Position numbers and translations under genes: made by a program. This document shows positions 359 through 49,329 of a DNA stretch of 64,000 nt, piece after piece. Source of the stretch: an uncultured Bacteroidales bacterium (GTDB lineage: Bacteria; Bacteroidota; Bacteroidia; Bacteroidales; UBA932); assembly GCA_900316245.1 (NCBI GenBank), contig ONCE01000005.1:1-64000 (forward strand), in the 5' to 3' direction. Position 1 is the first letter of the stretch. Every line of letters begins with the position of its first letter. Under the pieces are notes generated by a model. The model was not told the DNA's origin, did no database searches, and saw only the letters and a list, made by a program, of their open reading frames with translations.

Positions 359-391
359 AAGCCCACCTTCATCCCGACCTTGACCGTCGTC

Positions 392-440
392 ATGGCCGAC
401 CTGATCGGCCATCTCTTCATCCCGGGCCCAGACCCGGGAT
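392..440. repeat. Pair of short palindromes
   Basis: ATGGCCGA/TCGGCCAT (392-399 and 405-412) and ATCCCGGG/CCCGGGAT (419-426 and 433-440) are perfect 8-bp-arm palindromes. They belong to the same general type (GTCATnnCC..GGnnATC) as the palindromes inside atpG, the MATE gene and near 49262-49290. Confidence 0.7.
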
Positions 441-584: not shown

Positions 585-718
585 AGTGACCGGAAGGGAG
601 AGCCTCCGGAAGGCGTAGCCGCCCATGGCTCGTGAATGGGAGGGGCCCGCCGGCTCTGCCGGTGGGAGGGATAGGACCGAAGGTCCGTACCTTCAGGAGG
701 CTCTCCCTTCCGGTCACT
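585..718. repeat. Long palindromic element A (29-bp arms)
   Basis: The left arm 585-613 (starts AGTGACCGGAAGGGAGAGCC) and right arm 690-718 are complementary at 28 of 29 positions. The interior contains GGGAGGGGCCCGCCGG and GGTGGGAGGG plus small hairpins, resembling elements B (49330-49515) and C (56407-56592), whose arms have different sequences. Confidence 0.8.
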
Positions 719-29031: not shown

Positions 29032-30954
29032 ATGACGCTTTACTTAACCGGCAGTCCCACCAGGTTTGGGGAGTCCAGTTTTACCCCAGACAACGGCTTT
29101 CTGGCCGATGTCAGGGCCTCGTTGGCAGAGGTGACGGGACCCGGCAGAAACCCCCGTGTGCTGCTGGTGAGTGCCGCCCCGGACGACAAAGGCTTCACGG
29201 ACTCGGTCAAGAAGGGAATGAGCTATTGCATCCACCGTTCCGGCATCCGGACGGCCTCCGTCACAATGCTGGAGAGGAGCAATGCCGGGAAGGCCGGAGA
29301 GCTGGTAAAGCAGGCCGATTGGATCATCCTCTGCGGAGGCCACGTGCCCACGCAGAACCGGTTCATCCACGAGATAGGCCTGAGGGAACTGCTGAAGGGC
29401 TATGAAGGAGTAGTGATGGGTTGCAGCGCCGGCAGCATGAACTGCGCGGAGGATGTCTACTCCCATCCGGAATTGCCGGGAGAAGCCCGGGACCCGGGCT
29501 ATAAGCGCTGGCTCAAGGGACTGGGGCTCACGGACATCAACCTGGTTCCGCATTTTGAGCAGGTGCGGTACGCGCAGGTGGACGGCCTGCGGCTCTTTGA
29601 AGACATTGCTTTCCCCGACAGCTGGGGCCACAGGTTCTACACCTTCCGCGACGGCGGATACATAAAGGTCAAGGACGGAAGGGCCATCCTGTACGGAGAA
29701 GCGTTTGAGATAACCCGAGGTGCCATGCACCGCATATCGGAAGAAAACAAAACCTGTTGCTTTATGAACGTAGTATTCATCTCTCCCCATTTCCCGCAGA
29801 CCTACTGGCACTTCTGCGCCGGTCTGAGGGCCAACGGTGTCAACGTGCTGGGCATAGCCGACACCAACTACGAGAACCTCCCCTGGGAGCTGCAGCAATG
29901 CCTCTCGGACTACTACAAGGTGCACAGCCTGGAAAACTACGACGAGGTGTACCGCGCCGTGGCCTTCTATGCACACCGATATGGAAAGATAGACTGGATA
30001 GAATCCAACAACGAGTACTGGCTGGAGCAGGACGCCCGCCTGAGGACGGACTTCAACGTCACCACCGGTATCAAGACGGACCGGATAGCCTCCATCCGCA
30101 ACAAGTCCGAGATGAAGAAATACTACGCCGCCGGCGGCATCCCCACGGCCCGCCAGATCAAGGGCTCCGAAGGCCTTGCCAAGGTCCAGGCCTTTATCAA
30201 GAAGGTGGGCTATCCCGTCATTGCCAAGCCGGACAATGGAATGGGGGCCTCCGGTACCTTCAAGCTCAATAATGACCAGGAGCTCAAAGCCTGGTTCAAG
30301 GAGCACGAAAACAACTTTGGCTACTTTGTTTTTGAAGAATTCATCACCGGCCTTCTGGTTAGTTACGACGCCATTTTCAATTCCAAGGGAGAGCCCATTT
30401 TCGAGAACAACACCGTGTTCCCTATGCCCATCATGGACGTGGTGCACGACAACCTGGAAATCTGCTACTGGACCAACAAGACGGTTCCTGCCAAACTCTC
30501 CGCCATTGGCCGCCGTACGGTAAAGGCCTTTGGCGTCACGGGCCGCTTCGTGCATCTGGAGTTCTTCCAGCTGGAGAGCGACCGCCCCGGCCTGGGCAAG
30601 AAGGGAGACTACGTGGGCCTGGAAGTGAATATGCGCCCGCCGGGAGGCTACACCCCCGATATGATGAACTTCGCCCACAGCACCGACGTTTACCAGCTAT
30701 GGGCCGATATGGTTACGTTTGACGAGGCTCGCAAGCCGCAGGGAGAGCAGTACTTCTGCGCCTACGCCGGCCGCCGCGACGGTGTGGCCCACAAACATAG
30801 CCACGAAGAAATCATGAACCGCTACGGTGCCAACATAAGGATGGCCGAAAGGGTTCCCGACGCCCTGTCCGACGATCTCTGCAACTTCGCCTACATAGCC
30901 CGCTTCAAGGAAAAGAAAGACATAGACGCCTTCTTCAAATACGTAACGGAATAA
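29032..30954 (+). CDS. Peptidase S51-like / ATP-grasp fusion protein
   Basis: 640-aa two-domain protein. Residues 1-240 are a peptidase E/cyanophycinase-like (S51, class I amidotransferase-like) domain: VLLVSAAPDDKG, LCGGHVPTQNRF and the nucleophile motif MGCSAGSMN with Ser132. Residues 245-640 are an ATP-grasp ligase: MNVVFISPHFPQTYWHF, YPVIAKPDNGMGASGTFKL and the metal site LEVNMRPPGGYTPDM. The second domain starts with Met245, so internal initiation is possible. Start at 29032 chosen because the promoter -7 box precedes it directly. The domain pair suggests making and cleaving a peptide or amide bond; the substrate is unknown. Confidence 0.85.
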   Translation: MTLYLTGSPTRFGESSFTPDNGFLADVRASLAEVTGPGRNPRVLLVSAAPDDKGFTDSVKKGMSYCIHRSGIRTASVTMLERSNAGKAGELVKQADWIILCGGHVPTQNRFIHEIGLRELLKGYEGVVMGCSAGSMNCAEDVYSHPELPGEARDPGYKRWLKGLGLTDINLVPHFEQVRYAQVDGLRLFEDIAFPDSWGHRFYTFRDGGYIKVKDGRAILYGEAFEITRGAMHRISEENKTCCFMNVVFISPHFPQTYWHFCAGLRANGVNVLGIADTNYENLPWELQQCLSDYYKVHSLENYDEVYRAVAFYAHRYGKIDWIESNNEYWLEQDARLRTDFNVTTGIKTDRIASIRNKSEMKKYYAAGGIPTARQIKGSEGLAKVQAFIKKVGYPVIAKPDNGMGASGTFKLNNDQELKAWFKEHENNFGYFVFEEFITGLLVSYDAIFNSKGEPIFENNTVFPMPIMDVVHDNLEICYWTNKTVPAKLSAIGRRTVKAFGVTGRFVHLEFFQLESDRPGLGKKGDYVGLEVNMRPPGGYTPDMMNFAHSTDVYQLWADMVTFDEARKPQGEQYFCAYAGRRDGVAHKHSHEEIMNRYGANIRMAERVPDALSDDLCNFAYIARFKEKKDIDAFFKYVTE

Positions 30955-30983
30955 TCTCAACGATCAATATTAACACAAGAATT

Positions 30984-33029
<2,046 letters not shown>

Positions 33030-33030
<1 letters not shown>

Positions 33031-33275
33031 TGGACGAAATTCAACTTCATATCCTGAGTCCCGAGGGGACGCTGGTCAAAAAGGCCGTGTCGCTGGTGAC
33101 GCTGCCGGGCGTGGTGAGTCCTTTCACCGTGCTCAAGGACCACGCCGCCCTGGTCACCGCCCTGGTGGAAGGAGACATCCGTTATGTGGCAAATGACAAG
33201 GAGGAACTTCTCCACATCCAGGAAGGTTTTGTGGAAGTGAAAGATAACCAGGTAAAAGTCTGCGTGGAGGTATGA
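33030..33275 (+). CDS. atpC: ATP synthase F1 subunit epsilon (short form)
   Basis: 81-aa protein containing only the N-terminal beta-sandwich (LHILSPEGTLVKKAVSLVTLPG, HAALVTALVEGDIRY). The C-terminal helical hairpin that inhibits ATP hydrolysis in the 130-140-aa enzymes is absent, so regulation by that route is lost. Overlaps atpD (TAATG) and atpB (4 bp). Confidence 0.92.
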
Positions 33276-34312
33276 TCCTCATTTTCCTCATATCGTTATT
33301 GTTGTTACAAGGAGATACACTCGGCCTTGCAGGCCTCGGTATGACAAACGAAGCCGCTGTCATACCGAGCGAAGCGAGCGTATCTCATGAAGAGGAACTT
33401 GATATAGCAGAGATTATCTTCGAGCACATTGGTGACGAGTATGAGTGGCACATCACAGAGTGGAAGGGCAAGGCCATTGCCATTCCGCTACCTTGTATTG
33501 TGATAGAGGACGGTGTGCATATCTTTACGGCGCATCACGCGGTGGATTATGGATATACATTCAATGAGAACGGGAAACTGGTGAATGCCCAGACTGGCAA
33601 GCGGCCCATAGACTTGTCCATTACCAAGAACGTCCTGGCCCTCATGTTTAGCACTTTGCTCCTTCTGGTCATAGTGCTGTGGACGGCCCGCTGGTACAAG
33701 AAACATGATGCCTTGCAGCAGGCCCCCACTGGTCTTGCGGCCGCTATGGAGCCCCTCATCATGATGGTGCATGACATGGCACGAGAGAATATCGGCCCGG
33801 ATTACCGGAAGTTCTCTCCCTACCTTTGCATGGCCTTCCTGTGGATCCTGTTCAACAACTTCCTGGGTATCCTGCCCTTCTTCCCGGGAGGCGCCAACCT
33901 CACGGGTAACATTGCCATTACGTTGGTACTGGCCCTGTTCACCTTCTTTACGGTGAACCTGAACGGTACCAAACATTATTATAAAGAGATTTTTGCCCCG
34001 GATGTTCCGGGCTTCCTTAAACCCATAATGCCGGTGATCGAGGTCTTCAGTACCATTATGAAACCGGTCTCCCTCACCATCCGTCTATTCGCCAATATGC
34101 TGGCGGGCCATATTATGATCCTGTCTATGGTGTGCATCATCTTCATCGTGGCCAAGTACGGCCCGCTCCTGACAGGCAGCATGACGCTCATATCCGTTCT
34201 CTTCGGCGTGTTCCTGGATGCGCTGGAGTGCCTGGTTGCCTTTATCCAGGCCTATGTATTTACCATGCTCAGCTCCATTTATATCGGACTGGCACGGGCT
34301 CATGAAGAATAA
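33272..34312 (+). CDS. atpB: ATP synthase Fo subunit a
   Basis: 346-aa membrane subunit forming the proton half-channels. Core motifs are NNFLGILPFFPGG, KPVSLTIRLFANMLAGH (with the essential Arg) and the last helix AFIQAYVFTMLSSIYIGLA. The N-terminus is a hydrophobic leader, then a periplasmic segment (EIIFEHIGDEYEWHI) usual in Bacteroidales. Residues about 14-38 (DTLGLAGLGMTNEAA then VIPSEASVS) are encoded by a palindromic repeat inserted in frame (33312-33386), an oddity shared with atpG. Confidence 0.96.
   Translation: MILIFLISLLLLQGDTLGLAGLGMTNEAAVIPSEASVSHEEELDIAEIIFEHIGDEYEWHITEWKGKAIAIPLPCIVIEDGVHIFTAHHAVDYGYTFNENGKLVNAQTGKRPIDLSITKNVLALMFSTLLLLVIVLWTARWYKKHDALQQAPTGLAAAMEPLIMMVHDMARENIGPDYRKFSPYLCMAFLWILFNNFLGILPFFPGGANLTGNIAITLVLALFTFFTVNLNGTKHYYKEIFAPDVPGFLKPIMPVIEVFSTIMKPVSLTIRLFANMLAGHIMILSMVCIIFIVAKYGPLLTGSMTLISVLFGVFLDALECLVAFIQAYVFTMLSSIYIGLARAHEE
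33312..33386. repeat. Palindromic repeat inserted in frame in atpB
   Basis: Outer arms GAGATAC (33312-33318) and GTATCTC (33380-33386) enclose perfect 12-bp inner arms CTCGGTATGACA (33335-33346) and TGTCATACCGAG (33358-33369). It encodes residues 14-38 of subunit a. The right half recurs in atpG at 37880-37911. Confidence 0.88.
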
Positions 34313-34331
34313 CTTTTAAACTATTGATATT

Positions 34332-34592
34332 ATGATTCTTTCCGCTATCATTCTTCAAGCTGCCGCAGGTGCAATGCTCGGCAAGGCCGGTGCTGCACTG
34401 GGCGCTGCTATCGCTGCCATTGCTGCCGCCATCGGTATCGGCAAAATTGGCAAATCCACTATGGAAGCCATTGCCCGTCAGCCGGAAAGCGCCGGTAACC
34501 TGCGTACATCCATGATCATTGCCGCCGGTATGGTGGAGGGCGCCGCCCTGTTCGCCATCATCGTGGCCCTGCTTGCCATCCTCATTAAGTAA
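34332..34592 (+). CDS. atpE: ATP synthase Fo subunit c
   Basis: 86-aa hairpin protein of the rotor ring. Two hydrophobic helices (GAALGAAIAAIAAAIGIGKIG and MIIAAGMVEGAALFAIIVALL) are joined by the polar loop ARQPE. The ion-binding Glu lies in GMVEGAALF; the Ser/Thr next to Glu seen in sodium-coupled rings is replaced by Gly, favouring proton coupling. Normal length. Confidence 0.97.
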   Translation: MILSAIILQAAAGAMLGKAGAALGAAIAAIAAAIGIGKIGKSTMEAIARQPESAGNLRTSMIIAAGMVEGAALFAIIVALLAILIK

Positions 34593-34594
34593 GT

Positions 34595-35101
34595 ATGAAC
34601 CTGATTACGCCCGATTTCGGCCTCCTTTTCTGGATGGTCGTTATCTTCGGCCTTGTGTTCTTCCTCCTCGCGAAGTTCGGATTCCCGATCATCACGGACA
34701 TGGTGGATCAGCGCAGTGCCAAGATACAGCAGTCCCTGAAGGATGCCGACGAAATTGAGGCGCGTATGGCGAAGTGGAAGGTCGAGCAGGCCCAGATGCT
34801 GGAGCAGACCCGCCGGGAACAGAGTGCCATCCTCAAGGAGGCAACGGAAACCAAGGCTAAGATTGTGGCCGATGCCAAGCAGCAGGCCAAGGAAGAGGCC
34901 GACAAACTGCTGGCCGAAGCCAAGCTCCAGATAGCGGCCGAAAAGGAGAGCGCCCTTCGCGACGTGCGCAAGGAAATTGCCCTCCTGAGCGTAGAAGTGG
35001 CCCAGAAAGTGCTCCGCCGCGAGCTCTCCGACGAAGGCAGCCAACGCGCCTTCCTGGATAAGCTGGTGGACGAAGCCGGTCAGGCAGATATCCGCTCATG
35101 A
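34595..35101 (+). CDS. atpF: ATP synthase Fo subunit b
   Basis: 168-aa peripheral-stalk subunit. One N-terminal membrane segment (FGLLFWMVVIFGLVFFLLAK) is followed by a long charged coiled coil (residues about 45-130) and a C-terminal delta-contact region. Starts 2 bp after atpE and overlaps atpH by 4 bp. Confidence 0.95.
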   Translation: MNLITPDFGLLFWMVVIFGLVFFLLAKFGFPIITDMVDQRSAKIQQSLKDADEIEARMAKWKVEQAQMLEQTRREQSAILKEATETKAKIVADAKQQAKEEADKLLAEAKLQIAAEKESALRDVRKEIALLSVEVAQKVLRRELSDEGSQRAFLDKLVDEAGQADIRS

Positions 35102-35658
35102 ACCGCAGCATCGTCATAACGCGCTACGCCACCGCGCTGGTGAAGTATTGCCGGGTGACCGGACACGGAGAGATTGTCTGCTCCGAAGCCGAGACCCTGG
35201 AGCGGGCCCTGTTCCAGGTGCCCGAGCTCCGGCGTATGGTTACGGCGGCCGACGACGTGGTGAGCCCCTTTGACAAGAAGAAGCTCCTGCAGACCGCCCT
35301 GGGAAACAAGATGTCGCAGGAACTGAGCCGGTTCCTCACGCTGCTCAATGAAAATAGCCGTATGAGCCTGGTGGAGGACATCCTTCGGAGCTTCATTACC
35401 CTGTACAGGCGCAGCATCGGCATCCGCAAGGCCCATCTCACCACCGTAAGCGAACCTTCCGAGCGCCTGCTTCAGCGCCTGAAGGACCTGGTCCGCCAAA
35501 AGACCGGGGACGATGTGATCTTTGAAGTAGAAGTGGATCCCAACCTCATCGGAGGCTTTGTGCTGGACCTGGACGAGTTCCTGATGGACGCCAGCGTCAA
35601 GCACCAGTTGGACCAGATCCGCGAACAGTTTATTGAAAGAAACAGAAGAATAATCTAA
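35098..35658 (+). CDS. atpH: ATP synthase F1 subunit delta
   Basis: 186-aa OSCP-type stalk subunit. The N-terminal helical bundle begins [15 protein letters not shown], and the C-terminal motif [32 protein letters not shown]-type region ([11 protein letters not shown]) identifies the family. Coupled by overlaps with atpF and atpA. Confidence 0.95.
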
Positions 35659-37241
35659 TGGCAACAAGTCTGAAACCATCGGAAGTGAGCGATATCCTGC
35701 TAGGGCAGCTCCAAGACATGAAAAACGACCTCCAGTTCGAGGAGATCGGCAAAGCCTTGCAGGTGAGTGACGGCGTCGTGCGCATCTACGGCCTGGACCA
35801 TGCCGAAGCCGGCGAACTGCTGGACTGCGGCAACGGCGTGATGGCCGTGGTGATGAACCTGGAGACCGACAACGTGGGCGCCGTGCTGATGGGCCCCACG
35901 GATCAAGTGAAGGAGGGTATGGTGGTGCGCCGTACGGGCCGCATCGCTTCCATTGGCGTGTGCGACAAACTGCTGGGCCGCGTAGTGGACCCGCTGGGTG
36001 CCCCGCTGGACGGCCTGGGCCCGGTAGACGGCGACAAGATTGACATGCCGCTGGAGCGCAAGGCTCCGGGCGTCATCTACCGCCAGCCGGTGAGCGAGCC
36101 CCTTCAGACGGGCCTCAAGGCCATTGACGCGATGATTCCCATCGGCCGCGGTCAGCGTGAGCTCATCATCGGAGACCGTCAGACGGGTAAGACCGCCATT
36201 GCCATTGATACCATCCTTAACCAGCGCCAGGCCTACGAGGCCGGAGACCCGGTGTACTGCATCTATGTGGCCATCGGCCAGAAGGGCTCTACCGTGGCTT
36301 CCATTGTGAAGACCCTGCGGGAGCGTGGCGCCATGGACTATACCGTGGTGGTGGCTGCTACAGCATCCGACCCCGCCGCGCTTCAGTACTATGCTCCTTT
36401 TGCCGGAGCCGCCATCGGCGAGTACTTCCGCGACACGGGCCGCCACGCCCTGGTGGTGTACGACGACCTCTCCAAGCAGGCTGTGGCCTACCGTGAGGTA
36501 TCCCTCATCCTCAAGCGCCCTTCGGGCCGCGAGGCATACCCCGGCGATATCTTCTACCTGCACAGCCGTCTGCTGGAGCGTGCGGCCCGCATCATCGACC
36601 AGCAGGAAGTGGCCCAGCAGATGAACGACCTCCCGGCCGCCCTCAAAGACAAGGTCAAGGGCGGCGGCTCCCTCACCGCCCTGCCCATCATCGAGACGCA
36701 GGCCGGTGACGTATCGGCCTATATCCCCACCAACGTGATTTCCATCACGGACGGCCAGATTTACCTGGAACAGGGCCTCTTCAACCAGGGTGTCCGTCCC
36801 GCCATCAATGTGGGTATTTCCGTGTCCCGTGTGGGTGGCAGCGCCCAGGTCAAGTCCATGAAGAAAGTGGCCGGTACCCTCAAGATCGACCAGGCCCAGT
36901 GGACGGAGCTGGAGGCTTTCTCCAAGTTCTCGTCAGACGTGGACAAGGTTACCGAACTGGCCCTGGATAAAGGCCGAAAGAACAACCAGCTGCTCATCCA
37001 GCCCCAGTACAGCCCTATGCCCGTGGGAGAACAGGTGGCTATCCTCTTCTGCGGAACGCGCGGCCTTATGCGGGATATCGCCATCGATGCCGTGCACGCC
37101 TTCCAGGATGCTTTCCTGGGCCGCCTCCGCGCCACGCACCAGGCCGATGTCCTGGACCCGCTGGGAGCCGGCAAGCTCACTCCTGAGATTGAAAAGATTC
37201 TGACAGATACCGCAGCCTCCGTTATCCTTACCCTCAAGTAA
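35658..37241 (+). CDS. atpA: ATP synthase F1 subunit alpha
   Basis: 527-aa non-catalytic nucleotide-binding subunit. [10 protein letters not shown] at the N-terminus, Walker [32 protein letters not shown], the [24 protein letters not shown] stretch and [15 protein letters not shown] are conserved. Length slightly above 500, as in the phylum. One-base overlaps with atpH and atpG. Confidence 0.98.
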
Positions 37242-38164
37242 TGCCCACGCTGAAGGAAATAAAGGGCCGGATAGGGTCGGTCAAGAGTACGCTGAAGATT
37301 ACTTCGGCGATGAAGCTCGTGTCCAGTGCCAAACTGCGCAAGGCGCAGGTGGCCATCGAGGCTATGAGACCGTACGAGGAGGCCCTGCAGGGCATCCTGG
37401 CTACCTTGGAGATTCCCGGTCAGGCCGGGAACGACGTATGGGGCGCCGGGAATGCCGTGAGGGACGGGTGGGACTCTGAGGAGTCCGTCATGCCCGGCAC
37501 CGATCGGGCATCTTCCGACCGGGCATCCAGGCCCACGGCCCTTGTGGCCATAGCCTCCAATTCCTCCCTTTGTGGCGGCTTCAACGCCAACATCATTGCC
37601 AAGGTGCGCAGTGAGCGCAAGCCCGGGGACGTGATTTATTCGTTGGGCCGAAAGATGGCCGACGCCATGCGCCGTGACGGCTATCCCACCCCCGAGGACC
37701 TGAACGACCTGGTGGAGCATCCGGCCTACGGCCCCGCCGCCGCCCTGGTGGAAAAGTTGGCCCACGAGGTAGAGGAAGGCAAATATAGCCGCGTGCTCCT
37801 GGTCTATACCCATTTCGTCTCTACGGCCCGCCAGGTTCCCGTGGCAGAAGTGCTATTAGGAGGAGATACGCCCACAGACGTTGTCATACCGAGCGAAGCG
37901 AGTGTATCTCCTGATGATGTCCTCATCGAGCCCGGCAAGAAGGAACTGCTGGCGAGCCTCCGTCCCAAGACCCTCAAGCTCAAGCTGTATGCAGCCCTGC
38001 TGGACAGCGTCGCCGCCGAGCACGCCGCCCGTACCGTGGCTATGCAGACGGCCACCGACAACGCCGAGAACCTCCTCTCCGAACTCACCCTCCAGTACAA
38101 CAAGGGCCGTCAGCAGAAGATTACTTCAGAAATTCTGGACCTCGCAGGTGGTCAGACCGAATAG
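37241..38164 (+). CDS. atpG: ATP synthase F1 subunit gamma with two repeat-encoded inserts
   Basis: 307-aa rotor shaft. N-terminal helix KEIKGRIGSVKSTLKITSAM and C-terminal helix AARTVAMQTATDNAENLL are typical, as is SNSSLCGGFN. Two stretches are unlike the family: residues about 57-97 (IPGQAGNDVWGAGNAV... VMPGTDRASSDRASRP), encoded by palindromes at 37411-37530, and residues about 208-224 (DTPTDVVIPSEASVS), encoded by the palindrome at 37862-37911. Both lie in surface loops of the Rossmann-like domain, away from the coiled-coil rotor, so the protein should still work. Confidence 0.95.
   Translation: MPTLKEIKGRIGSVKSTLKITSAMKLVSSAKLRKAQVAIEAMRPYEEALQGILATLEIPGQAGNDVWGAGNAVRDGWDSEESVMPGTDRASSDRASRPTALVAIASNSSLCGGFNANIIAKVRSERKPGDVIYSLGRKMADAMRRDGYPTPEDLNDLVEHPAYGPAAALVEKLAHEVEEGKYSRVLLVYTHFVSTARQVPVAEVLLGGDTPTDVVIPSEASVSPDDVLIEPGKKELLASLRPKTLKLKLYAALLDSVAAEHAARTVAMQTATDNAENLLSELTLQYNKGRQQKITSEILDLAGGQTE
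37411..37530. repeat. Palindromic repeat cluster inserted in frame in atpG
   Basis: Contains ATTCCCGGtcaggCCGGGAA (37412-37431) and ATGCCCGGcaccgatCGGGCAT (37490-37511), then a further partial copy GACCGGGCATCC. The same palindromes occur in the MATE gene (43258-43316) and between genes at about 49262-49290. Adds about 40 residues. Confidence 0.85.
37862..37911. repeat. Second palindromic repeat inserted in frame in atpG
   Basis: Arms GGAGATAC (37862-37869) and GTATCTCC (37904-37911). The right half TGTCATACCGAGCGAAGCGA matches the atpB element exactly over 20 bases; both encode VIPSEASVS. Confidence 0.88.
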
Positions 38165-38171
38165 TTTTTGT

Positions 38172-38199
38172 TATCTTTGTGGTAACACGCCACAAAGAT
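38172..38199 (+). promoter_or_regulatory. Dipeptidase promoter with overlapping perfect palindrome
   Basis: The -7 box TATCTTTG (38172-38179) lies in the left arm of ATCTTTGTGG/CCACAAAGAT (38173-38182 and 38190-38199), a perfect 10-bp-arm palindrome ending 1 bp before the ATG. It may be an operator. Confidence 0.6.
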
Positions 38200-38200
38200 T

Positions 38201-39562
38201 ATGAAAACTTATATCCAAGAAAATAAGCAGCGCTTTTTTGACGAGCTGTTTTCCCTCCTTCGCATTCCCTCCATCAGCGCCAAACCGGAGCATAAGCCGG
38301 ATATGTATATGTGCGCCCAGCGGCTGGTAGACCTTCTGAAAGAAGCCGGGGCCGATGACGCCGATGTATACGAGACCGCCGGCCACCCCGTGGTGTACGG
38401 CTACAAGAATATAGGTGCTCCCAAGACCGTGCTGGTCTACGGCCACTACGATGTCCAGCCCCCGGAGCCCCTGGAGAAATGGCGTACGGACCCCTTCGAG
38501 CCCGTTCTGGCCAAGGATCCCGTTACCGGTGAGGACGCCATCTACGCCCGCGGCGCCAACGACGACAAGGGCCAGCTCTTTATGCACCTGAAGGCCTTCG
38601 AGTTCCTTCTGAAGACCGGTCAGCTGAGGCACAACGTCAAGTTCATCTTCGAAGGGGAAGAGGAGATAGGCAGCGGCTCCCTGCCCGCCTGGGTAGAGGC
38701 CCACAAGGATCTGTTGAAGGCAGATGTCATCCTGGTCTCCGATACCACTATGATCAGCGAGAAGGTGCCGTCCATCAACTGCGGCATGCGCGGTCTGGCG
38801 TATCTGGAAGTAAAGGTGACAGGTCCCAACAAAGACCTCCACTCGGGCCACTACGGCGGCGCGGTGGCCAATCCCATCAACGAACTCTGCGCCCTCATTG
38901 CCTCCCTGCACGATGAAGACGGCCGCGTGGCCATCCCCGGCTTCTACGACGACGTAGTGGAACTGAGCGCAGAAGACCGCGCCCTTCTGAACAAGGCTCC
39001 CTTCGATATGGAAGAATACAAGCAGTTCCTGGATATCAAGGAAGTCAAGGGAGAAAAGGGTTACACCACCCTGGAGCGTACCGCCATCCGTCCCTGCCTG
39101 GATGTCTGCGGCATCTGGGGCGGCTATACGGGAGTAGGAGCCAAGACGGTTCTGCCTTCCGTGGCCTACGCCAAGGTGTCGATGCGCCTGGTTCCCTGGC
39201 AGACTTCGGCCAAAATCACCAAACTCTTCCAGGAGCACCTGCAGCGCATTGCTCCGCCATATGTCAAAGTGGAAGTCACGCCCTTCGAAGGCGGTGACGG
39301 CTTCCTCATCCCCATCAGTTCCCACGCTTACCAGGCGGCCTCCAAGGCCATGGCAGACGTCTACGGCATAGAGCCCGTTCCGGCCCGCGGCGGCGGCTCC
39401 ATCGCCATCCTGGCCGATATGCAGCGCATCCTGGGCATCGATCCGCTGCTGATGGGCTTCGGCCTGGAAAGGGATACCATCCATTCGCCCAACGAGAGTT
39501 ATCTCCTGCGCCAACTCTTTGCCGGAATGGAGTCCATCGTTGGATTTTATAAGTATTATTAG
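38201..39562 (+). CDS. M20-family dipeptidase
   Basis: 453-aa dizinc metallopeptidase. Metal and catalytic motifs in order: VYGHYDVQPPEPLEKW, YARGANDDKGQLFMH, FIFEGEEEIGSGSLPAW, SDTTMISE and DLHSGHYGGAV, followed by the dimerisation domain and the C-terminal RGGGSIAI. No signal peptide, so cytoplasmic. It most resembles the M20 dipeptidase/carnosinase-type subgroup (about 450 aa). Single gene with its own promoter. Confidence 0.92.
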   Translation: MKTYIQENKQRFFDELFSLLRIPSISAKPEHKPDMYMCAQRLVDLLKEAGADDADVYETAGHPVVYGYKNIGAPKTVLVYGHYDVQPPEPLEKWRTDPFEPVLAKDPVTGEDAIYARGANDDKGQLFMHLKAFEFLLKTGQLRHNVKFIFEGEEEIGSGSLPAWVEAHKDLLKADVILVSDTTMISEKVPSINCGMRGLAYLEVKVTGPNKDLHSGHYGGAVANPINELCALIASLHDEDGRVAIPGFYDDVVELSAEDRALLNKAPFDMEEYKQFLDIKEVKGEKGYTTLERTAIRPCLDVCGIWGGYTGVGAKTVLPSVAYAKVSMRLVPWQTSAKITKLFQEHLQRIAPPYVKVEVTPFEGGDGFLIPISSHAYQAASKAMADVYGIEPVPARGGGSIAILADMQRILGIDPLLMGFGLERDTIHSPNESYLLRQLFAGMESIVGFYKYY

Positions 39563-41283: not shown

Positions 41284-42635
41284 TGTCCCTCTTTTCCTAT
41301 TTCCGCATCAGTAAACCTTCGGAAACACCCGTTCCGGAAGGGGAGGTGGACGCCTCCTACAGACGCTTCCGTGAGCGTACCTTCTGGGGCGTGACCGTGG
41401 CCTATACCCTGTACTACGTGTGCCGGGGTACCCTGGGCGTGGTCAAGCAGCCGCTCATCGACAGTGGCGTGCTTACGGCCGGGGAACTGGGCCTCATTGG
41501 GTCGGCCTTCTACTTTGTGTATGCGGTAGGAAAGTTTACCAACGGTTTTATTGCAGACTATTGCAACATCCGTCGTTTTATGGCGGCGGGTATTGGCATA
41601 TCGGCCCTTATTAACCTTATTCTGGGTATCCTGGGGCTGCTGGGAACGCCGCTGGGCAAAGGATCCCTCTTTGTCTTTGTGACTTTCCTTCTCCTTTGGG
41701 GCGTGAACGGCTGGGTGCAGTCCATGGGTTCTCCTCCCGGCACCATCAGCCTGTCCCGCTGGTTCCCGCTCAATCAGCGCGGTACCCGGTACAGCATCTT
41801 CAGTTCTACCCCGCAGCTGGGCAAGTCCGTTTCCATGGTGATGACGGGCTTCATCGTGGCGGCCGCAGGCTGGCAGTGGGGCTTCCTGGCGGCGGCTGTG
41901 GCGGGGGTTATCGGCCTGGTCATTTCCCTGGTCTTTGTCTCGGATACGCCCGAGAGCGAGGGCCTTCCCTCCGTGCAGGAACTCTCCGGAGAGCCGGTGC
42001 GGGAGATGGATAAAAAGCCCACGCAGGAGCTCCAGAGATGGGTTTTCCGGCATCCGGGCATTTGGGTTATCGCCATTTCTACGGCTTTCCTTTATATTAC
42101 CCAGCACGCGGTGAGCGACTGGGGCGTCCTCTTCCTTCAGAAGCAGAAAGATTTCTCCCTCAGCAGCGCTGCGCAGGTTATCGGTTATGCCGAAGCCTTC
42201 GGTATCACGGGCAATCTCCTGGCGGGCTGGCTTTCGGACCGGGTGTTCGGCGGCAACCGCGTACGGCCCGTTGTCCTGGCCGGCATTCTGGCCGTGGCCT
42301 CGCTGTTCGGCTTCCTGTTCCTGGAAGGCGGATTCGCTTTGAATATGGTGTTTGTGGCCGTGTTCAGTTTCTCCTTCAGCATTGTGTTCTGCATTGTGGC
42401 GGGCCTGATGGCGCTGGATTTCGTGCCCCGCAAGGCCACGGGTGCGGCCCTGGGCATCGTGGGTATCTCCAGTTATGCCGCAGCCGGTCTGCAGAGCTCG
42501 GTGAGCGGTTTCCTCATCGGCGGCTTCGTGGAGCAGGGCGTCTACAACTTTACCCCCGTATCCATCTTCTGGATCGTGGCCTGCCTGCTGGCTTTCGTGC
42601 TGCCGGTTATCGGCTGGAAATACCTGAGAAAATAG
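41283..42635 (+). CDS. MFS transporter, organophosphate:phosphate antiporter type
   Basis: 450-aa protein with about 12 membrane helices. TLYYVCRGTLGVVKQPLI, the GLIGSAFYFVYAVGKFTNGFIAD segment, and the WGVNGWVQSMGSPPG motif closely resemble GlpT/UhpT/UhpC transporters of sugar or glycerol phosphates. Start at 41283 overlaps the HAD gene stop; a longer frame upstream is an alternate reading of that gene. The 3' end overlaps the convergent MATE gene by 29 bp. Substrate not determinable. Confidence 0.9.
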   Translation: MSLFSYFRISKPSETPVPEGEVDASYRRFRERTFWGVTVAYTLYYVCRGTLGVVKQPLIDSGVLTAGELGLIGSAFYFVYAVGKFTNGFIADYCNIRRFMAAGIGISALINLILGILGLLGTPLGKGSLFVFVTFLLLWGVNGWVQSMGSPPGTISLSRWFPLNQRGTRYSIFSSTPQLGKSVSMVMTGFIVAAAGWQWGFLAAAVAGVIGLVISLVFVSDTPESEGLPSVQELSGEPVREMDKKPTQELQRWVFRHPGIWVIAISTAFLYITQHAVSDWGVLFLQKQKDFSLSSAAQVIGYAEAFGITGNLLAGWLSDRVFGGNRVRPVVLAGILAVASLFGFLFLEGGFALNMVFVAVFSFSFSIVFCIVAGLMALDFVPRKATGAALGIVGISSYAAAGLQSSVSGFLIGGFVEQGVYNFTPVSIFWIVACLLAFVLPVIGWKYLRK

Positions 42636-43968
42636 CTTTCTTGTAACGTACCGTCAAGTACGCCGCCCTTATCGCGAGATGCATAAAGTAGGCGGCCATC
42701 AGCAGGTGGATGGCGGCCTCGGGTGTTGAGGCGTAGCGCTCTCCCGCAAACCATACCGCAAAGAAACCCACGGCGCAGAGCAGCGTGCTGTTGCGGAGGT
42801 CTTTGGAGGCCGTGGCGCCTATGAAGATGCCGTCCCATACAAAGGCCGGGCAGCCGATGAGTGGCATCAGCAGCAGCCAGGGCAGGAATTGCCGGCCGGC
42901 TTCCACCACCACGGTGTCTTCTGTCATCAGGCGAAGGATGGGTGTTCCGCCGGCGCCGTAAGCCAACACAAACAGGCCCGCCATAGCCATCCCCCAGAGG
43001 AAGGTCTGCCGCACGGTGCAGCGGACGCCTTCTTCAGACCCTTCGCCGATGAATTTGCCCGTGAGGGCTTCTCCGGCGTAGGCAAAACCGTCCGTGAAGT
43101 AACTGAAGAACATCAGGAGTTTCATCAGGATGGCACTCACCGCCAGCATCACATCTCCATATCGGGCCGATATAATCGTAAACCCAATGTACACCGCAAT
43201 CATCCCGATGGACCGTAGGAACAGGTCCCGGTTCAGGGCGAACAGCCTGTTTTCAGATGGCCGGTCGGAGCCGGCCATGACGGCCTTTTCGTCATTCCCG
43301 GCTTGACCGGGAATCTTTACCCCGTATCGGCGGCGGGCGACGATGACGCAGTACGTGAAGCCGCTCCACTGGGCCAGGAAAGTGCCCAGGGCAATGCCGG
43401 GGAAGCCCATCAGCATACCCAGCACGATGGAGGCGCCAATGTTGATGCCGTTTACCAGGAGGTCGGCGGTCATAGGCCTTACGGTGTCCTGCATGCCTAT
43501 GAACCAGCCTTTGAAAGCGAAGAGCGAAAGCGTGGCGGGAGCGGCCCAGATGCGGATGTAGAAGTACTGGGTAGCCAGTTTCTGAACTACCGGGCTGCAG
43601 TCAATGAAGAGGAAGGCCAGTTGCACCACCACCCATTGGAGGGCGATGAGGCCGATACCGGAGATAAGCGCAATGCGCAGCGCCCGGTTCAAAATGTCCG
43701 CCGTTTCGTCCGGGCCGGCCTGACCGGCCGCCTTCCGGCCGTAGGCCTGTGCCGTAAGGCCGCCCGTTCCCACCCGCAGGAATCCGAAGTTCCAGTACAG
43801 CAGGTCGAAGAGCATGGCCCCTATGGTGATTCCGCCTATGAGCGCAGCGGCCGAAGTCCCCTGCAGGTGTCCGGCTACGGCCATATCCACCATACCCACA
43901 AGGGGGACGGTGATATTGGCAAAAATGCTGGGAATGGCCAGCCGCAATATCTCGCGGTTCAGATTCAT
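42607..43968 (-). CDS. MATE-family efflux transporter
   Basis: 453-aa protein with about 12 hydrophobic helices in two halves (LRLAIPSIFANITVPLVGMVD, the MDMAVAGHL motif, FDLLYWNFGFLRVGTGGLTAQ). It resembles DinF-type MATE drug/sodium or proton antiporters. The start at 43968 overlaps the rsgA stop (ATGA). Residues about 218-237 (KIPGQAGNDEKAVMAGSDRP) are encoded by a palindromic repeat in the loop between the two halves, an insert not expected in the family. Downstream gene of an rsgA operon. Confidence 0.9.
   Translation of the reverse strand: MNLNREILRLAIPSIFANITVPLVGMVDMAVAGHLQGTSAAALIGGITIGAMLFDLLYWNFGFLRVGTGGLTAQAYGRKAAGQAGPDETADILNRALRIALISGIGLIALQWVVVQLAFLFIDCSPVVQKLATQYFYIRIWAAPATLSLFAFKGWFIGMQDTVRPMTADLLVNGINIGASIVLGMLMGFPGIALGTFLAQWSGFTYCVIVARRRYGVKIPGQAGNDEKAVMAGSDRPSENRLFALNRDLFLRSIGMIAVYIGFTIISARYGDVMLAVSAILMKLLMFFSYFTDGFAYAGEALTGKFIGEGSEEGVRCTVRQTFLWGMAMAGLFVLAYGAGGTPILRLMTEDTVVVEAGRQFLPWLLLMPLIGCPAFVWDGIFIGATASKDLRNSTLLCAVGFFAVWFAGERYASTPEAAIHLLMAAYFMHLAIRAAYLTVRYKKAIFSGISSR
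43258..43316. repeat. Palindromic repeat inserted in frame in MATE gene
   Basis: TGGCCGGtcggaGCCGGCCA (43258-43277) and ATTCCCGGcttgaCCGGGAAT (about 43293-43314), each followed or preceded by TGACG/CGTCA. Same paired layout as in atpG; the shared peptide is IPGQAGND. Confidence 0.85.
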
Positions 43969-44897
43969 CGGAATTTCTTGTCTTCCTCCAGCATACCCAG
44001 GTAGGAGTTGTAGCGCTCCGGGGAGATGAGGCCGGCATCTACCGCCGCCTTGACGGCGCAGCCGGGCTCGTGGGTATGGGTGCAGGGGATGAAGCGGCAA
44101 TCGGCCGATGCCTTGAGCATCTCCGGGAAGTACTTGGCAATCTCTTCCTTTTCCACATCCACCAGGCCGAAGCCGCGGATGCCGGGGGAGTCAATGAGGT
44201 ACCCGCCGCCGCTGAGGGGGTACATCTCGTAGAGGGACGTGGTGTGCTTGCCCTGCAGATGGGCGGCCGAAATCACGCCAATCTTGGGGTCCAGGCTGGG
44301 GTCCAGCGCCTTGATGAGGGAACTCTTGCCCACACCGGACTCTCCGGAGAACAGGTTTACGCGGTCCCGGCAGGCTTCGCGGATTTCCGCTATGCCTTCT
44401 CCGGTTTTGACGGAGGTTTCAATGACCTTGTAGCCGGCACCCTCGTAGATGGCTTTGAAATGGGCTATTTCCTCCGCGGCGGGTTCCCGGTACAGGTCTG
44501 TCTTGGACAGGACGATGGTAGCGGGAATGCCGTAAAGTTCGCAGGTGACCAGGATGCGGTCCAGGAAGGGGAGTTTTACTTCGGGGAAGTACAGGGATAC
44601 CACCAGATAGGCCCGGTCCACGTTGGCGGCAATGATGTGCGCCTGGCGGGAAAGGTTGGTGCTGCGGCGGATTACATAGTTCCGGCGGGGGAGAATCTCG
44701 GTGATGACGGCGCTGTCTCCGTCATCGGCCCATTCATATTTGACTTTATCTCCTACAGCTATGGGGTTGGTGATTTCGCTGGCCTTGAGGCGGACCTTGC
44801 CGCGAAGCACGGACGGGAACACGTCCCACGCCGGTAACTCGGACAGCAGATAATGGCTGCCCGCATTCTTTACTACCGTTGCTTCACCGCATTTCAT
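43965..44897 (-). CDS. rsgA: Ribosome small-subunit GTPase A
   Basis: 310-aa circularly permuted GTPase for late 30S maturation. N-terminal OB fold (AVGDKVKYEW), G4 SKTD, then G1 GESGVGKSSLIKAL, G3 DSPGIRGFG, and a C-terminal zinc motif with FIPCTHTHEPGCAVK. The -7 box ends 6 bp before the ATG, so the mRNA is probably leaderless. Confidence 0.96.
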   Translation of the reverse strand: MKCGEATVVKNAGSHYLLSELPAWDVFPSVLRGKVRLKASEITNPIAVGDKVKYEWADDGDSAVITEILPRRNYVIRRSTNLSRQAHIIAANVDRAYLVVSLYFPEVKLPFLDRILVTCELYGIPATIVLSKTDLYREPAAEEIAHFKAIYEGAGYKVIETSVKTGEGIAEIREACRDRVNLFSGESGVGKSSLIKALDPSLDPKIGVISAAHLQGKHTTSLYEMYPLSGGGYLIDSPGIRGFGLVDVEKEEIAKYFPEMLKASADCRFIPCTHTHEPGCAVKAAVDAGLISPERYNSYLGMLEEDKKFR

Positions 44898-49163: not shown

Positions 49164-49329
49164 GCGGTAGACGTGCTATTGTTTGTACCGTCTACCACGT
49201 TTTGAGTACCTTTTCGTGGTAGATGGGACATTTTCCGGCACGTCTAACGCACTCTGGACGGGAGATGCCCGGTCGGTGCCGGGCATGACGACAAGGGTCA
49301 GAGCCCGGGATGAGATGGGAAATGACAGG

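Follow-up and report, generated by a model that had tools for sequence, protein, structure and literature searches.

In-frame palindromic inserts of REP type in atpB and atpG of an uncultured Bacteroidales bacterium, and apparent turnover of repeat families at the same loops in its relatives

The extracts of Di Nocera et al. 2013 (PMC3733652) consulted here list CGTC-tagged repetitive extragenic palindromes (REPs) in Bacteroidetes, report no transposase associated with them, and assign RPE-4 and RPE-6, two Rickettsia palindromic elements (RPEs), to CGTC families. The part of PMC10969869 consulted describes as unexplored how much in-frame palindromic elements have added to the making of new or modified proteins. 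Here we describe three palindromic inserts in the ATP synthase genes atpB and atpG, located in a 64,000-nt window (the whole stretch of DNA analysed) of the uncultured Bacteroidales assembly GCA_900316245.1. The inserts are probably REP-type palindromes that are translated with their host genes and tolerated in flexible loops, and the same loops hold other palindrome families in related species.

All three inserts are in frame and free of stop codons, and they belong to two REP families, one TGTC-tagged (T1) and one CGTC-tagged (Table 1). Insert 1, in atpB, starts with GAGATAC, ends with GTATCTC and consists of a 35-nt unit, an 11-nt spacer and a 29-nt unit; the coordinates, frame and stop-free state given for this 75-bp palindromic repeat in a first-pass annotation of the sequence were exact. 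So was the statement that atpB and the second atpG copy encode one peptide from common bases. The 20-mer GTCATACCGAGCGAAGCGAG occurs identically at 33359 and 37883 and is read as VIPSEASVS in both genes, as residues 30-38 of AtpB and 215-223 of AtpG. The annotation also counted two palindromic repeats in atpG. Both are in frame and stop-free, but the first (insert 2) belongs to the other, CGTC-tagged family and the second (insert 3) has no significant fold. When folded as single-stranded DNA against shuffled sequences, the atpB element stood out clearly (Table 1), atpG 37411-37530 moderately (z -2.6) and atpG 37862-37911 not at all (z -0.9), so insert 3 is recognised by its sequence and not by hairpin stability.

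The siting proposed at first, behind the leader of subunit a and in loops of gamma, held as well: insert 1 lies at the AtpB leader junction, and the gamma inserts coincide with low-confidence stretches of the AlphaFold model. In this AtpG model (42 rows, mean predicted local distance difference test score [pLDDT] 86.8), loops 57-99 and 207-232 have low pLDDT and the remainder is mostly above 90. The first stretch separates helix 4-56 from strand 100-104, the second separates strand 198-206 from helix 233-306, and they are the two AtpG insert loops. The gamma inserts occupy loops that are predicted to be disordered or flexible.

The T1 family is dispersed in the host genome. Copies with no more than one mismatch number 18, and the T1 20-mer gave 21 genome matches at up to three mismatches, against none for the reversed pattern. 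By open reading frame (ORF) and homology, 17 of the 18 copies are in frame in genes. The hosts, assigned with hidden Markov models, are MnmE, LigA (C-terminal end), a FabF-like synthase, FakA/YloV, DnaX (two copies), CysS, a phosphoglycolate-phosphatase-like HAD protein, a ComEA-like protein, a XerC-like recombinase, TruB, a PG_1098/THUMP-like protein (two copies), an alpha-2-macroglobulin-like protein, a family-2 glycosyltransferase, AtpB and AtpG. In FakA the unit sits between the Dak2 and middle domains. The remaining copy (locus L011) lies immediately upstream of the ORF of a pyridoxal-phosphate (PLP) protein. That protein (L011 671-1522, minus strand; alanine racemase N-terminal domain) has an internal Pro/Gly-rich stretch that itself looks palindrome-derived. 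The FabF-like synthase (L005 505-1992, plus strand) has about 95 extra residues between its two domains, made of tandem GDPKNQFPETST-type repeats followed by the T1 unit.

A strict coding test, based on a codon model trained on the host genome, accepted 11 of the 18 copies; it may undercount genes of other genera, undercounts copies close to gene ends or in arrays, and fails AtpB itself, MnmE and LigA. In-frame insertion into unrelated protein genes, a feature of RPEs, is seen by either count (17/18 by ORF and homology, 11/18 by the strict test). Five of the six reading frames of the T1 unit are open, and their use is uneven: 12 copies read VIPSEASVS, two CHTERSERI, three DTLASLGMT, and the other two frames are not used (chi-square p 7e-6). 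Such uneven use of open frames fits selection on the peptide.

The CGTC unit is also dispersed (40 genome matches, against 0 reversed). A 464-kb genome sample, composed of 20 stretches and the window and 92.5% coding by our own gene caller, contained 14 CGTC-type hairpins, where shuffled and reversed sequence each gave 0; 7 of the 14 lie inside called genes, among them the pair in the MATE-family transporter gene of the window (Table 1). Coding fractions given here are based on fetched copies and on this sample. Both families recur across the genome, the TGTC copies mostly in frame in genes and the CGTC copies with a less clear placement (the strict test passed 12 of 30 that were fetched). The suggestion of the first-pass annotation that palindromic elements akin to those of Rickettsia genes sit in a core enzyme of a Bacteroidales is supported by these dispersed families in frame in genes.

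The atp genes of the window are arranged in the order atpD-C-B-E-F-H-A-G; they were named from ORFs, and AtpB and AtpG were confirmed by Pfam. The window lies within contig C13 (90,954 bp) of a metagenome-assembled genome (MAG) of 2,242,306 bp (2.24 Mb) in 35 contigs, assigned to Bacteroidales.

Table 1. Positions in the window of the ATP synthase inserts, their host genes and further CGTC-tagged REPs
Feature	Position	Strand	Description	Evidence
atpB	33272..34312	+	F0 subunit a, 346 amino acids, host of insert 1	PF00119, 5e-58
Insert 1	33312..33386	+	Head-to-head pair of TGTC-tagged REPs, 75 nt, in frame, encodes DTLGLAGLGMTNEAAVIPSEASVS directly behind hydrophobic leader	DNA fold z -5.8
Insert 1, left REP	33312..33346	-	Reverse orientation, 35 nt	Inverted repeat I16
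Insert 1, right REP	33358..33386	+	TGTCATACCGAGCGAAGCGAGCGTATCTC, family T1, 29 nt	Repeat search
atpG	37241..38164	+	F1 subunit gamma, 307 amino acids, host of inserts 2 and 3	PF00231, 9e-77
Insert 2 (AtpG loop 1)	37411-37528		Element-bearing stretch: head-to-head CGTC-tagged REPs, 49-nt spacer, partial third	
CGTC-tagged REP, AtpG loop 1	37411..37436	-	Reverse orientation, encodes IPGQAGND	
CGTC-tagged REP, AtpG loop 1	37486..37512	+	CGTCATGCCCGGCACCGATCGGGCATC, encodes VMPGTDRAS	
Tail of partial third REP, AtpG loop 1	37513..37528	+	TTCCGACCGGGCATCC	Read from sequence
Insert 3 (AtpG loop 2)	37862-37911	+	GGAGATAC...GTATCTCC, 50 nt, one T1 unit after complementary foot	
Insert 3, left foot	37862..37869	+	GGAGATAC, 8 nt, complementary to insert 3 right end	
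Insert 3, T1 REP, AtpG loop 2	37882..37911	+	30 nt, VIPSEASVS on its GTC frame	
CGTC REP pair in MATE-family transporter gene (42607-44100, -)	43257..43314	-	Encodes KIPGQAGNDEKAVMAGSDRPS; second intragenic case in window	
CGTC-tagged REP	388..412	+	Outside called genes	
CGTC-tagged REP	49265..49290	-	Outside called genes	

Units are about 27-30 nt long and occur singly or as head-to-head pairs, the arrangement that prevails in the CGTC-tagged superfamily; pairs were seen in atpB, AtpG loop 1 and the MATE gene. A T1-like partner lies within 80 nt of 4 of the 18 T1 copies (L003, L012, L014 and L018), and one further copy (L007) lies behind a CGTC-type unit. The unpaired head is CGTC in the loop 1 copy at 37486-37512 and TGTC in T1, and both are among the heads of the REP superfamily (CGTC, TGTC or CCTC). 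The superfamily stem has 8-9 bp starting from AT and a loop of 4-5 nt; CGTC copies have an 8-bp stem from AT and a loop of 5-6 nt, while T-type units in AtpG loop 2 begin with AT yet have only 4-5 contiguous pairs. The tails of 30 own CGTC copies were CTC (15), CTT (5), CCC (4), CTA (2), CTG (2), CCG (1) and CCA (1), and that of T1 was CTC in 18/18 copies, unlike the mostly CCA tail of the superfamily. The host genome also has 28 long-arm hairpins, which were rejected as an account of the intragenic copies because 26 of them are not in called genes. Window 585-718 and L147 12561-12689 are intergenic hairpins with locus-specific arms of 29-30 bp; their G+C-rich cores, about 70 nt long, are similar.

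The sites were then compared across relatives. By AtpA, the nearest named relatives are MAGs of uncultured Bacteroidales, many of which bear ruminant names, and L055 is the closest with 97% protein identity; the host clade consists of gut and rumen bacteria. Alignments were made of AtpG from 79 and AtpB from 74 of 80 relative loci, and their variable stretches were the site behind the AtpB leader and the two AtpG loops. The clade set was the window plus L055-L106, and L107-L134 served as the comparison group (L109 was counted there in the signature table, although it falls inside the clade on the AtpA tree). Signatures of eight palindrome families were present at 33/46 AtpB sites, 26/52 AtpG loops 1 and 35/51 AtpG loops 2 of the clade, rates that are descriptive because these very loops supplied the signatures, chosen by eye; the counts omit L086 (AtpB, mis-trimmed) and L101 (AtpG loop 2, empty), and contigs without the gene were not scored. 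The same signatures were found in 1, 1 and 0 of the 28 comparison loci, and in 16 of 612 random segments of AtpA, D, F and H used as a control.

A signature-free hairpin search of the 52 clade loci L055-L106 gave 46 hairpins in AtpB and AtpG versus 11 in the six other atp genes, a 9.9-fold difference per base (p 2e-15), and 42 of the 46 fall in the three loops. In L107-L134, AtpB had 1 hairpin and AtpG 3. Mapped on a tree of AtpA DNA (54 rows, built by a quick method, with 13 of 51 inner branches weak), the families require at least 24 changes at the AtpB site, 18 at AtpG loop 1 and 23 at AtpG loop 2, with TGTC variants pooled and mixed loops given a single label. As read from these alignments, the sites are occupied clade-wide by differing families, not in the host genome alone, and are hot spots with family turnover.

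An empty site is also seen. In L065, L067 and L069 the AtpB leader is joined directly to mature AtpB (FLISLFLLQ-EINVSEIIF), so the alignment with element-free relatives proposed as a check of the first-pass annotation found the insert residues absent. L070, related to these empty-site loci, has 15 extra codons with a TGTC unit at this site, and its sister on the tree, L073 (support 93), has 33 extra codons with CGTC units; the two inserts share their first bases. In AtpG loop 2, all 16 REP heads detected in a scan of forward GTCAT heads are in one codon frame, and 13 of these 16 forward REPs end 8-14 nt before the loop end, irrespective of family. CysS and FakA behave similarly: across six related genomes one and the same loop is filled by a CGTC unit, by a T unit or by linker that is plain or decayed, and the sister genome, that of L055, has CGTC units in CysS and FakA where the host has T1, in one loop and one frame. 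At 29 nt, the T1 unit GTCATACCGAGCGAAGCGAGTGTATCTCC has the length of the CysS CGTC unit GTCATACCCGACTCCGATCGGGTATCTCC, and their ends are identical. Since the length of the FakA loop is nearly constant, a unit there takes the place of linker and is not merely added. These comparisons suggest, by inference and not by observation, that same-sized units are exchanged at a resident site. The CysS loop DNA is nearly identical in L247 and L248, from two species without a sister relationship on the AtpA tree, and it is possible that a cysS segment was exchanged between them.

Another palindrome, element W, was seen at L155-L184 and in the AtpB and AtpG loops of L062, L063, L067, L075, L076, L084, L085, L093, L104 and L105. 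Its conserved core of about 33 bp is flanked by inverted arms that are near-perfect (16-30 bp in 29 of 30 copies) and vary from locus to locus. There are 76 copies in 9 of 10 genomes, and 18 of 30 fetched copies are coding by our test, 17 of them using one frame per orientation (SASLRDPVRANAPE or GAFARTGSRSDAEE types). With 0 copies in the host genome, W was rejected as a source of the window inserts. Behind the AtpB leader of the sister species L104 and L105 the W arms are identical and the core is inverted, by which one insertion encodes two different peptides; W may possibly be an in-frame invertible segment there.

Residence in genes differs between the clade and other genera. The strict test counts 11 of 30 fetched copies (from 59 matches) as coding in ten further genomes of the clade, whereas none of 30 fetched T-type copies from other genera (from 151 matches in five genomes, mostly the ATTCC variant) passes it. 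Under this one rule the host differs from the other genera at 11/18 vs 0/30 (p 1.4e-6) and the clade at 11/30 vs 0/30 (p 3e-4); the stronger contrast of 17/18 vs 0/30 (Fisher 4e-12) mixes a homology-aided with a strict count. In the best-scoring frame, none of the 30 other-genus copies was flanked on both sides by more than 50 open codons; five of them (L222, L223, L225, L229 and L240) were so flanked on one side. Among 119 genomes drawn from the family, the host included, 7 had the T1 pattern at no more than one mismatch, the host being one of the 7.

What can be read directly from the DNA comprises the repeat families, their in-frame siting, the frame bias, the predicted disorder in gamma, the empty site, the clade occupancy and the family differences at one codon position. 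We consider it likely that the inserts are REP-type palindromes in coding sequence that are translated, tolerated in permissive flexible loops and switched in place. The units would spread by a REP-type mobility process, and out-of-frame or structurally harmful arrivals would be purged by selection. An insert that remains would be translated as part of the protein and persist through its siting in a flexible loop, and a loop already holding a palindrome would tend toward replacement in place by another family, because the units share size (29-30 nt) and ends (GTCAT...ATCTC) and so preserve the frame. If so, mobile DNA would have written most of the AtpB and AtpG loop residues in this clade. 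The different palindromes that related species have at the same places suggest a continued rewriting of parts of an essential enzyme by mobile DNA.

Several observations weigh against this reading. Insert 3 lacks a significant fold, most long-arm hairpins of the genome lie outside genes, the occupancy rates serve for description, and loops that show no signature may nonetheless contain a palindrome missing from the list. With random insertion and a frame filter, approximately 80% of copies would be expected in genes, and 17 of 18 is not significantly above this (P ~0.11); a preference of T1 for genes was therefore rejected, and the count shows tolerance and not a proven preference. By the strict test many copies are not clearly intragenic, as the fractions for own T1 (11/18), other clade genomes (11/30) and own CGTC units (12/30) indicate. 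T1 itself is patchy, as the 20-mer with at most one mismatch is found in 0 of the 8 other same-genus genomes of the 119-genome draw. Complementary ends like those of miniature inverted-repeat transposable elements are present, and no target duplication was evident at the single empty/occupied AtpB comparison. No transposition was observed. The host genome has three candidates (L052-L054) of the Y1-transposase type, the type covered here; within their 3-kb loci there is no T1 copy, and the sole CGTC-like match is weak (4 mismatches, L052). The L053 protein scored 31.7 bits against NF047646, the model for REP-associated tyrosine transposases (RAYTs), under the cut-off of 80, and the L054 protein had no NCBIfam match. 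Spread driven by a RAYT was rejected, since Y1 candidates exist but are unflanked by T1. The inserts also do not fit a GTAG REP/RAYT system: the tag is TGTC or CGTC, L053 is below the cut-off and no T1 lies beside the candidates.

A more far-reaching form of the switching reading is conceivable, and we put it forward tentatively: a standing loop-rewriting system, in which resident palindromes in AtpB, AtpG, CysS, FakA and other proteins are overwritten in frame by templated exchange of same-sized, same-ended units. REPs would then be interchangeable protein cassettes in this clade, while the sampled copies of other genera are extragenic.

It is unlikely that the inserts are adaptive, that is, that palindrome peptides in gamma and subunit a are kept for tuning coupling or for blocking wasteful ATP hydrolysis. 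Lineage-specific gamma loops have effects of this sort elsewhere, in chloroplast and mycobacterial enzymes. The recurrence of signatures in the same three loops and the lower hairpin rate of the other six atp genes would agree with such a role, but loop family and length vary among close relatives, the AtpB site of L065, L067, L069, L087 and L092 has 6-8 codons and no element, the same families are present in unrelated proteins, and no conserved loop motif was seen by eye. A role at the DNA or RNA level (mRNA hairpins, gyrase or nucleoid sites), with the coding context incidental, has a still slimmer chance. The strong fold of the atpB element and the near-perfect, locus-specific arms of element W in relatives speak for it; the lack of a significant fold in insert 3 and the strong codon-frame bias, which points to the peptide, speak against it. 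A known structured RNA was rejected, as no Rfam match at E <= 0.1 was found in 30900-38300. The same search argues against that DNA- or RNA-level role and against inserts left untranslated through splicing or ribosomal bypass, a convenient silent removal from essential genes that we regard as very improbable: all 17 intragenic T1 copies (17/17) are in frame, stop-free and biased to a preferred frame, which neither process would require. Although the window and the compared relatives are MAG contigs, an assembly artefact or ordinary inherited loop residues is hardly credible given in-frame palindromes at the same sites in separately assembled MAGs, dispersed copies in the same genome and close relatives with an empty AtpB site.

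The preferred reading, of translated and tolerated REP-type palindromes that are switched in place, thus concerns a few loops of an essential, structurally known enzyme, which hold differing palindrome families in dozens of species. The empty site and decayed forms alongside provide a natural series for measuring gain, switching, decay and functional effect, and the contrast with other genera raises the question of what lets the REPs of this clade live in genes. Family switching in fixed core-enzyme loops and a clade-specific intragenic habit were not met in the literature searched, and nothing comparable was found for Bacteroidales in the open-access papers searched. The main text of PMC3733652 does not contain "ATP synthase" or "atpG", and family switching at one protein loop across species does not appear in the extracts consulted.

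The described systems, compared here from extracts of their papers, share different features with the inserts. PARCELs are coding elements of palindromic type for which mobilisation within and between genomes has been proposed, and are set apart by their description as tandem arrays of 25-residue motifs associated with membrane-targeted proteins (PMC2996958). Mitochondria of Nematomorpha have palindromes within protein genes, complex I genes included, but both arms encode conserved protein regions there (PMC6649704), whereas the host elements are dispersed repeats in variable loops. RPEs, likened by description, are palindromic repeats in frame in unrelated genes and can modify the gene product (PMC10969869, PMC3733652); they are about 150 bp long (PMC10969869), compared with a unit of about 30 nt or a pair of 75 nt in the host, and belong to a different host phylum. 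CGTC-tagged REPs (PMC3733652) resemble the host units in the CGTC/TGTC head, AT at the stem base, head-to-head pairs and some intragenic copies. Their 8-bp stem matches that of the host CGTC copies, while the T1 stem is short and interrupted; the published elements are mostly intergenic with a mostly CCA tail, and the host tails are CTC-like (CCA in 1/30). Since intragenic REPs (PMC3733652) and Rickettsia elements (PMC10969869) have been described, the inserts in atpB and atpG represent a kind of element that is already known.

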